Of a DNA stretch of 64,000 nucleotides, positions 30,721 to 33,863 are shown piece after piece; the first letter of the stretch is position 1; the number at the start of each line of letters is the position of its first letter. The notes beneath the pieces were generated by a model. The model was not told the origin of the DNA. It searched no databases and saw nothing but the letters and a program-made list of their open reading frames with translations. The position numbers and the translations under genes are program-made. Origin of the DNA: a bacterium (GTDB taxonomy: Bacteria; CAIWAD01); contig JAUIFJ010000006.1 in the NCBI GenBank assembly GCA_030429345.1, forward strand, positions 62,001 to 126,000, written 5' to 3'.

Positions 30721-33074
30721 CGCTTCTCCTTTCCCAGGGCCTTGCGCAGGGCATCCTGCAGGGCTCCCTGGGGAGCGGGACGCTCGCGCCTTCGCTCGCC
30801 GCCCTGGCCTTTCCCGCCCTCCGGCCGCTTGCCGGAAGCGGCCTGCCGTGTACGCCGGCCATTCGGGCGCGGGCGCTCGGGCGCTTCCTGCAGCGCCTTG
30901 ATCGAGAGCGAGATCCGCTGGCGCTCCAGGTCGACGTCCAGCACCTGGACCTGGACCCGTTCCCCGACCGATAACACCTCGACCGGGTGGTTGACGCGTT
31001 TGTGCGACAACTGGCTCACGTGGACCAGGCCGTCTTCCTTGAGGCCCACGTCGACGAAGGCGCCGAAATCCACCAGGTTGCGCACGGTGCCGTCGAGCAC
31101 TGTGCCGGGCTTCAGCTGCTCGAGGCTCAGCGCGCCGCTGCGCAGCATGGGCGGATCAAGAGCCGAGCGTGGATCACGTCCCGGCCGGGCCAGCTCGTCC
31201 AGGATGTCGCGCAGGGTCGGCAGGCCCAGCCCGACCGAGCCGGCGAGCTCTTCCAGGTCCTTCAGCTTCGGGGAATCGGAGCGCACGCGGCGCGCCAGCT
31301 CCTCCGGCGCGATCGCCTCTTCCTGGTAGCGCCGGGCCAGCTGGCTGACGGCCTCGTAGGCCTCCGGGTGCACGGCCGTGTTGTCCAGTTCGTTCTCGCC
31401 GTTCCGTATACGCAGGAAGCCTGCGCACTGCCGGAAGGCGGCAGGGCCGATCCCCTCCACCTCCATCAGCTGGTCCCGGCGGCGGAAGGCGCCGTTGGCG
31501 TCGCGCCAGGCGACGATGTTGCGGCTCGATCGGCGTGTGACACCGGATACCTTGGCCAGCAGGTGGGCGCTGGCCGTGTTCAGGTCGACGCCGACGGCGT
31601 TCACCGTGTCCTCGACCACTCCGCCCAGCTTGTCCCCCAGGCGTCGGCTGTCCACGTCATGCTGGTACTGTCCCACACCAAGGGATTTCGGATCGATCTT
31701 GACCAGCTCGGCCAGGGGGTCCTGCAGTCGACGCGCAATCGAGATGTTGCCCCGCAGGCTGGCGTCCAGCTCCGGGAACTCCTCGCGGGCCGCGTCGCTC
31801 GCCGAGTACACGCTGGCGCCGGCCTCGCTGACCACCGCGTACTGCAGCTTCAGCTCGTTCTCGCGGATCAGCTCGGCGAAGAGCTCCTCGCTTTCCCGCG
31901 AGGCCGTGCCGTTGCCGATGGCGATCAGCTCCACCTTGTGGGACTCGATCAGCTGCAGCAGGCGCAGCTTGGCTTCGCTCCACTTCTTCTTCGGTGGATG
32001 GGGATAAAGGGTGTCGCCTTCCAGGTAGCGGCCGGTTCCGTCGATCACCGCCACCTTGCAGCCGGTCCGGAAGCCCGGGTCCAGTCCCAGCATCACCTTG
32101 CCCGGCAGGGGCGGCTGCAGCAGCAGCTGTTTCAGGTTGGCGGCGAAGATTTCCAGGCTGTGGCTTTCCGCCGCTTCGGTCGCCTGGCGGCGCAGGTCGC
32201 GGCCCAGCGCGGGCAGGGCCAGCCGGTCGAGGGCATCCCGGGCCACCGAGCGGAACCATTCGGCGCGGGGGTGCGCCTCGTTCCTGAGCCAGGCCTTGAG
32301 CACGGAATCCAGGGGAGCGGCTTCCGTCCAGTCCAGCTGCAGCTTGAGCACTCCCAGCTTCTCGCCGCGATTGAGCGCCAGCACCTGGTGCGGCTTGAGG
32401 CGCGCAAGGGGCTGGCTGAACTCGGCATAGAGGCGGAACTTGGCCGCCTCCTTGTGCGTTTCGTCGGCCAGCTGGCTGGCGAGGGCTGCCTTGCGAGAGC
32501 CGCTCTCGCGCAGGCTGGCGCGCAGGGGAGCGTCCTCGTTGATCCATTCGGCCAGGATGTCGGCCGCGCCGGCCAGGGCCTCCTCGTCGTCGGCCGCTTC
32601 CCCGCGCCAGGCTTCCAGGCTCTCGCCAGGTTCCGGACAGGAGGCATCCGGAAGGTCTGCGGCCAGGTCCCTGCGCCCGCAGAGCTCCAGGGCCAGGGCG
32701 GCGGCCAAGGGCTCCAGCCCTTTTTCCCGGGCCACTGAAGCCCGCGTGCGCCGTTTGGGCCGATAGGGCAGATAGAGGTCCTCCAGCTCCTGGAGCTTGT
32801 CGCAGGCCTCGATGCGCTTCTGCAGTCCATCGTCGAGCTTGTCCTGCTCGGCAATGCTCTTCAGGATCGCGGCGCGCCGCTCTTCCAGGCTTTTCAGCCG
32901 TTCCAGGCCCTCTTCGATGGAACGCAGCTGCACCTCGTCCAGGGAGCCGGTCCACTCCTTGCGGTATCGGGTGATGAAGGGAATGGTGTTGCCTTCGGCG
33001 AGCAGGTCGGCCGCGCTCTGCACCTGCTGTTCACGCAGGCCCAGGTCCTGGGCCAGGCGGGAGATCGGATTCAT
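30717..33074 (-). CDS. tex: Tex family RNA-binding protein
   Basis: 785 residues, normal for Tex. The order of domains is clear: N-terminal helical Tex region (NTIPFITRYRKEWTGSLDE), the YqgF-like domain with VMLGLDPGFRTGCKVAVID, helix-hairpin-helix segments (NTASAHLLAKVSGV, LMEVEGIGPAAF), and an S1 domain from about residue 653 (LKPGTVLDGTVRNLVDFGAFVDVG). The C-terminal 60 residues are a basic, glycine/arginine-rich tail. Tex is a transcription accessory factor. The ATG at 33074 fits the family start (MNPISRLAQDLGL). Confidence 0.95.
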   Translation of the reverse strand: MNPISRLAQDLGLREQQVQSAADLLAEGNTIPFITRYRKEWTGSLDEVQLRSIEEGLERLKSLEERRAAILKSIAEQDKLDDGLQKRIEACDKLQELEDLYLPYRPKRRTRASVAREKGLEPLAAALALELCGRRDLAADLPDASCPEPGESLEAWRGEAADDEEALAGAADILAEWINEDAPLRASLRESGSRKAALASQLADETHKEAAKFRLYAEFSQPLARLKPHQVLALNRGEKLGVLKLQLDWTEAAPLDSVLKAWLRNEAHPRAEWFRSVARDALDRLALPALGRDLRRQATEAAESHSLEIFAANLKQLLLQPPLPGKVMLGLDPGFRTGCKVAVIDGTGRYLEGDTLYPHPPKKKWSEAKLRLLQLIESHKVELIAIGNGTASRESEELFAELIRENELKLQYAVVSEAGASVYSASDAAREEFPELDASLRGNISIARRLQDPLAELVKIDPKSLGVGQYQHDVDSRRLGDKLGGVVEDTVNAVGVDLNTASAHLLAKVSGVTRRSSRNIVAWRDANGAFRRRDQLMEVEGIGPAAFRQCAGFLRIRNGENELDNTAVHPEAYEAVSQLARRYQEEAIAPEELARRVRSDSPKLKDLEELAGSVGLGLPTLRDILDELARPGRDPRSALDPPMLRSGALSLEQLKPGTVLDGTVRNLVDFGAFVDVGLKEDGLVHVSQLSHKRVNHPVEVLSVGERVQVQVLDVDLERQRISLSIKALQEAPERPRPNGRRTRQAASGKRPEGGKGQGGERRRERPAPQGALQDALRKALGKEKR

Positions 33075-33238
33075 CCGCTGCTTTCTGTTGTGTACCCTCT
33101 GGGGGCGATGCTGATTGAAGCCGCCAAAATAGAAATCCGCACCGAGAAGCTGCCGATCATCCATGCGGGAGGCGGCCGGGCTTTGAGAGTCGACAGGGCA
33201 TTGTTTCCTTTGCCCACAGCAAGGAGCCATACCTCTAT

Positions 33239-33598
33239 ATGAAGTTCTTCAAGAAACTGATCGGCCTGGGCAATCGGCCCCAGGAACTGTACGACGGCGA
33301 GCTGGAAGCCCTGCTGCAGGAGGAGCAGCGCCCCGTGGTCGTGGAATTCTACGGCCATGGCTGAGCGGGCTGCCGGACGGTGTCCGGCCTGCTCTACCAG
33401 GTGCGCGAGCTTTTCGGCGAGGAGGTGATCGTCTGCCGCGCGGATGTCGCCCGCACACCGGACACGGTGGCGGAGCAAGGCATTCGCGGCATTCCCACGA
33501 TCCAGGTCCACCACCGCGGCCGCCGCGTGGCCAGCTACACGGGACAGATCAAGCCGCCCGACGTGGTCGAGACCGTGGAAGCCATCCTTCCCCAATAG
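33239..33598 (+). CDS. Thioredoxin-like protein with probable selenocysteine (in-frame TGA) in a UxxC active site
   Basis: 119 codons with one in-frame TGA at 33362-33364 (codon 42). Before it: PVVVEFYGHG; after it: AGCR. Aligned with the thioredoxin signature F-W-A-P-W-C-G-P-C-R, the TGA falls exactly on the first active-site cysteine and the second cysteine is kept, giving U-A-G-C. The downstream half is an intact thioredoxin C terminus with the cis-proline loop GIRGIPTIQVHHRG. The frame is open on both sides. ATG at 33239 has AAGGAG about 12 bases upstream. A SECIS-like hairpin follows the TGA directly. Selenocysteine thioredoxins are known in a few bacteria. Other readings are a nonsense mutation or sequencing error; the SelA-D machinery is not in this window. 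Confidence 0.8.
33362..33394 (+). promoter_or_regulatory. Candidate bacterial SECIS element
   Basis: A two-part hairpin starts at the TGA itself. A lower stem of six pairs joins GAGCGG (33363-33368) to CTGCTC (33389-33394), with one G-T pair. A three-base bulge (GCT) follows, then a perfect 7-bp upper stem GCCGGAC (33372-33378) with GTCCGGC (33382-33388), and an apical loop GGT (33379-33381). The loop begins 17 bases from the U of UGA and has G in its first two positions, both within the published bacterial SECIS pattern. It would bind SelB and direct Sec insertion. Confidence 0.65.
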
Positions 33599-33624
33599 TC
33601 CTTGCACCCGTTTGCAACTCCTCA

Positions 33625-33660
33625 GGGGTCGTTTCCGGCAACAGAACCGAAAACGACCCC
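33625..33660 (+). terminator. Strong hairpin downstream of the thioredoxin-like gene
   Basis: GGGGTCGTTTCCGG (33625-33638) pairs with CCGAAAACGACCCC (33647-33660) with a single mismatch and an 8-base loop, followed by TTCGTT. It begins 27 bases after the stop at 33598 and is a likely transcription terminator. The rest of the gap to 33863 has no gene. Confidence 0.6.
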
Positions 33661-33863
33661 TTCGTTCATCCAACCACCCTCAAACACTTCATCCTTCATA
33701 CTTGTTAATACAGCACTTACCCAACCCCTCCCCAAAAAACTCAAGCATTTCCCCAGACATCCGAAAAAACAGGCGTGTGGTCGCGAAGAGGCTTCCGATA
33801 GCCCTTTCGTGATACACCGGCGACGGCGCGAAGGCGTCGTGATCCAATCCCGGATTGTCGAAT

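Follow-up and report, generated by a model that had tools for sequence, protein, structure and literature searches.

Known SECIS elements and selenocysteine thioredoxins

Selenocysteine-containing thioredoxins (PF00085, UxxC) have been listed for Geobacter, Anaeromyxobacter, Carboxydothermus and Treponema denticola (PMC1794560), and they are also recorded from the Sargasso Sea (PMC1088965; see also PMC13188914). Bacterial SECIS (bSECIS) elements are described by an apical loop of 3-9 nt, an upper stem of 4-16 bp and a minimum free energy (MFE) of -7.5 kcal/mol or lower (PMC13188914). Both such thioredoxins and such hairpins are already well known (PMC1794560, PMC1088965, PMC13188914); what is new here is an example from a poorly known phylum, apparently the Delongbacteria, a group on which the literature searched yielded no selenocysteine paper.

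The locus described below resembles the known selenocysteine thioredoxins in having a thioredoxin domain in which selenocysteine replaces the first cysteine of CxxC, but it differs from them in the surroundings of that site, which read FYGHGUAGC or FYSNTUSGC in this family against the usual WCGPC, and in an N-terminal extension of the form MKFFKKLIGLxxRPxEL. As in published bSECIS elements (PMC13188914, Fig. 2), a hairpin lies directly after the UGA within the open reading frame and carries a 3-nt loop with G first and the GG/GU pattern. Unlike them, it has a long lower stem that starts at the UGA, its loop lies close to the UGA, and the orthologues differ in pairing register.

A thioredoxin-fold gene with an in-frame TGA

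The window, i.e. the whole 64,000-nt stretch of DNA that was analysed, contains the following gene features, which were compared with homologues from three genomes of the same family (G001-G003) and one of the same class (G004, Candidatus Delongbacteria).

33221-33226, plus strand: Shine-Dalgarno-like AAGGAG upstream of the ATG, by direct reading
33239-33598, plus strand: thioredoxin-fold protein gene (119 aa) with a single TGA in frame and a TAG end, translated with TGA as U (Pfam PF00085)
33362-33364, plus strand: in-frame TGA (U42) at the start of the active-site motif UAGC (CxxC); aligned with the Cys of CPPC in G004 and with TGA in G001-G003

Under standard annotation the gene would be split at the UGA. 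With the UGA read as U, the product begins MKFFKKLIGLGNRPQELYDGELEALLQEEQRPVVVEFYGHGUAGCRTVSGLL, and a single Pfam Thioredoxin domain (PF00085, residues 18-113, E 1.7e-14, 54.1 bits against a cut-off of 23.5) spans the TGA. An AlphaFold model (five sequences) has a mean pLDDT of 87 and is matched by PDB thioredoxins with a TM score of 0.82 (Thermus thermophilus, 2cvk); U42 lies in this model just before the helix formed by residues 43-62, the site of the first CxxC cysteine in thioredoxins. In the homologue alignment column 42 holds U or C, and C45 is invariant. All NCBIfam thioredoxin equivalog models scored below their cut-offs (TIGR01068, 49.5 against 96.8 bits), so that by these profiles the protein is a member of the thioredoxin fold and not a classical TrxA. 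Separate cysteine thioredoxins, such as one with FWAEWCGPC, are encoded in the same genome.

The hairpin downstream of the TGA

The initial annotation had described a two-part, SECIS-like hairpin directly after the TGA, with a G-first loop 17 bases out, and had proposed RNA folding and a search of homologous sequences for compensatory changes as checks. Base-by-base reading of 33362-33394 recovered this hairpin as follows.

33363-33368 / 33389-33394, plus strand: 5' and 3' arms of the putative SECIS lower stem, six pairs (G-C, A-U, G-C, C-G, G-U, G-C)
33369-33371, plus strand: bulge GCU, its position degenerate by at most 2 nt
33372-33378 / 33382-33388, plus strand: 5' and 3' arms of the putative SECIS upper stem, seven Watson-Crick pairs
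33379-33381, plus strand: apical loop GGU, the last two bases of which are invariant in all four TGA-bearing homologues

The lower stem begins at the G of the UGA itself. The 33-mer folds at -19.8 kcal/mol in RNAfold, with a z of -3.0, and none of 200 dinucleotide shuffles equals it. In the 39-mer the 6+3+7 layout ties at -21.0 kcal/mol with an 8+3+5 layout in which the bulge sits 2 nt higher, and the bulge position is therefore degenerate. With a 3-nt loop, an upper stem of 5-7 bp and -19.8 to -21.0 kcal/mol, the hairpin falls within the published loop and stem ranges and well under the energy limit. By the bSECIS description one of the first two loop bases is also a G, which a G or U usually follows; here the loop is GGU in the window and CGU or UGUC in the orthologues. 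The GGU starts 17 nt from the U of the UGA, as had been annotated, with 14 nt strictly between (19 and 16 nt in an alternative register of the relatives); the published UGA-to-loop range is 16-37 nt, for which the sources give no counting rule, and the loop lies inside it when counted from the U and below it when counted strictly between, hence at or just under the lower bound. A scan of the window against Rfam gave no match, a result uninformative on bacterial SECIS elements; to our knowledge, Rfam holds no bacterial SECIS family.

The stability of the hairpin was compared with several backgrounds. Among the 1,502 TGA trinucleotides of the window, three precede a more stable 33-mer. Synonymous codon replacement that leaves the peptide unchanged gives a plain MFE this low in about 2% of recodings, and a mean over all recodings of about -13 kcal/mol: the local peptide and G+C content favour some pairing, though less than is observed. 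In a SECIS-rule test that was designed after the hairpin had been seen and whose distance range was counted from the U of the UGA, 0.1% of the recodings reach the hairpin energy (p about 0.001). Across six genes of the window, comprising 2,443 codon positions, one position has a SECIS-rule hairpin of this stability. At the same position of 34 cysteine-containing thioredoxins, three sequences gave a hairpin that obeys the rule, and none was as stable.

Selenocysteine decoding in the same genome

The genome to which the window belongs holds a complete decoding set, every member of which scored above its curated cut-off: a tRNA-Sec with a UCA anticodon, SelA and SelB genes on one contig, and a SelD gene. 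The selD gene (contig C46:5003-5920) itself has an in-frame TGA (TCGUAAK) followed by a hairpin with a GGUC loop. A second thioredoxin-fold selenoprotein candidate (contig C71:48927-49178), with DFQTEWUSWCRR in a longer protein, shows an 8-bp hairpin with a GGA loop after its UGA. In both genes the TGA occupies the expected Cys/Sec site and the G-first loop lies 20 nt from the U.

The TGA and selection in orthologues

Each of the three same-family genomes has an orthologue (44% identity) with TGA at the same codon, so the TGA is kept in four of four family members, which come from two genera, three of the four from one genus. The same start is preceded by GGAGG, AAGGAG or AAGGAGG in the three orthologues, and a Shine-Dalgarno-like site is therefore present in all four genes. 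Neighbouring genes are shared as well: in both genomes checked for neighbours ispD-ispF lies near the orthologue, accompanied in one by queA, as in the window. Among the three closer relatives most changes past the UGA are synonymous, just as upstream of it (pN 0.17-0.21 against pS 0.34-0.59), which indicates that the stretch after the UGA is translated. Between the window gene and these relatives synonymous change past the UGA is near saturation, and that comparison consequently says little on selection. Searches at the strict cut-off did not recover SelB from G002 or tRNA-Sec from G003, and both of these assemblies are fragmented.

The closest cysteine homologue found is the thioredoxin of G004 (FYSDTCPPC), with 29% identity and the same N-terminal RPEELDD region. 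It differs in having the Cys codon TGT and no hairpin, and in adjoining a second thioredoxin gene and a gene for a pyridine-nucleotide disulfide oxidoreductase. The latter resembles CoA-disulfide reductase (below the equivalog cut-off) and is a possible redox partner of the tandem thioredoxins. G004 has a tRNA-Sec despite its cysteine thioredoxin.

A scan of genome contigs with the single protein, and a scan of viral contigs with the alignment, returned no relatives. A loose DNA pattern for UGA-containing thioredoxins matched 218 of 290 genomes, mostly by chance; among the few matches inspected, three open UxxC thioredoxin-like frames from distant genomes outside the family (FYADWUVPC, FFADWUGPC and FFTTWUAAC) are probably further selenocysteine thioredoxins, and they were left out of the homologue set.

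How far the hairpin is conserved

The initial annotation had taken a TGA kept without the stem as evidence against its reading. On this point the comparison largely favours the reading, since all four TGA-bearing homologues have a hairpin, but some individual pairs of the upper stem are lost; what is conserved is the shape of the hairpin, and pair by pair the conservation is only partial. Each of the four sequences allows a lower helix AGYGG:CUGCU. Its 3' arm CUGCU is kept throughout, and its 5' arm lies 1 nt further 3' in the three relatives (TGA-AGC-GG against TG-A-GCG-G in the window). All seven upper pairs of the window are present in G001, two of them as G-U, whereas in G002 and G003 the fourth pair is replaced by an A·C mismatch. 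In the three relatives an alternative 7-bp upper stem (positions 13-19/24-30, loop UGUC) pairs perfectly; in the window two of its pairs are broken. All four sequences read G-U at positions 19-20 from the UGA. As to compensatory changes, a C-to-U substitution in G002 keeps a U-G pair, but covariation is weak, and little true covariation can be expected when there are only four TGA homologues and three of these belong to a single genus.

The 6+7 form of the window is far more stable than the hairpins of the relatives. Against synonymous recodings, the SECIS-rule hairpin gives p 0.001 in the window and 0.02, 0.05 and 0.05 in the orthologues, a mild excess in relatives that are mutually non-independent; by plain MFE the three relatives show no significant gain (p 0.12-0.15). 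The four-homologue comparison provides a small natural test set for the looseness of bacterial SECIS conservation. A speculative reading, which we regard as unlikely, is that the SECIS slides within one orthologous selenoprotein: the 5' arm of the lower helix would shift by 1 nt and the upper stem would switch between registers 11-17/21-27 and 13-19/24-30 (from the U) as the loop-region G-U stays in place, so that SelB would recognise shape and loop over fixed pairs.

Interpretation and alternatives

The complete set of decoding genes, the TGA at the position of the first cysteine in CxxC, the hairpin in three TGA-bearing relatives and its lack in the cysteine relative together support the SECIS interpretation. 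We consider it highly probable that the hairpin is a bacterial SECIS in the coding region of a thioredoxin-fold selenoprotein, directing selenocysteine into a UxxC site. The locus thereby adds a well-supported selenoprotein and its SECIS from an apparent member of the Delongbacteria.

If the TGA instead truly terminated translation, or had arisen by nonsense mutation in a gene undergoing decay, the hairpin would be a by-product of G+C-rich coding sequence, and a 72-codon frame might restart at the GTG at 33380. The open reading frame listing does contain that frame, and moderately stable hairpins do arise from peptide and base composition alone, as the synonymous mean illustrates. However, four genomes from two genera share the TGA at this active-site codon, purifying selection continues past it among the three closer relatives, and the genome decodes selenocysteine; a restart at 33380 would lack a Shine-Dalgarno-like site and lose part of the thioredoxin fold, whereas such a site precedes the upstream start in every family member. 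This makes a true stop very improbable. A genetic code that assigns UGA to tryptophan, or to some other amino acid, would also leave the frame open, but the G003 orthologue itself ends in TGA (the others in TAG or TAA), the aligned residue is the catalytic cysteine and not tryptophan, and a dedicated tRNA-Sec(UCA) is present with SelA and SelB, so that we give an altered code practically no credence. The pseudogene, restart and altered-code readings were all rejected.

Closer to the preferred reading is the possibility that the UGA is recoded to selenocysteine but that the SECIS is a loosely defined hairpin with a G-U loop, the lower stem and the exact upper register being incidental. The minimal E. 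coli SECIS needs only the upper stem-loop, the best structure or register differs among the orthologues, and the invariants are the loop-region GU and the CUGCU 3' arm. Against this, the AGYGG:CUGCU helix can form in all four sequences, in G002 through the C-to-U change, and the 6+7 form of the window is by far the most stable. We lean against this looser definition, while regarding it as a reasonable contender.

Proposed mechanism and neighbouring features

For the two-part SECIS, it is proposed that SelB with GTP and Sec-tRNA-Sec would bind the apical G(G)U loop as the ribosome nears the UGA at 33362, where selenocysteine would be delivered in place of termination, and translation would run on to the TAG at 33596-33598. 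In the predicted UxxC product, the U42 selenolate would be the attacking group on a substrate disulfide and C45 the resolving residue, as in a thioredoxin or a disulfide reductase. What the analysis shows directly is the sequence, its fold and homology, the presence of the genes for decoding, and the retention of the TGA with a hairpin; SelB binding, selenocysteine insertion and redox function are inferred.

A flagellin gene (PF00669/PF00700; 33937-34794, plus strand) lies directly downstream of the selenoprotein gene, which is itself overlain by an antisense frame of 200 codons (33071-33673, minus strand). Across the four homologues, the longest frame on the antisense strand runs open for 139-156 codons, which probably reflects codon bias, since TTA, CTA and TCA are rare in the sense frame.
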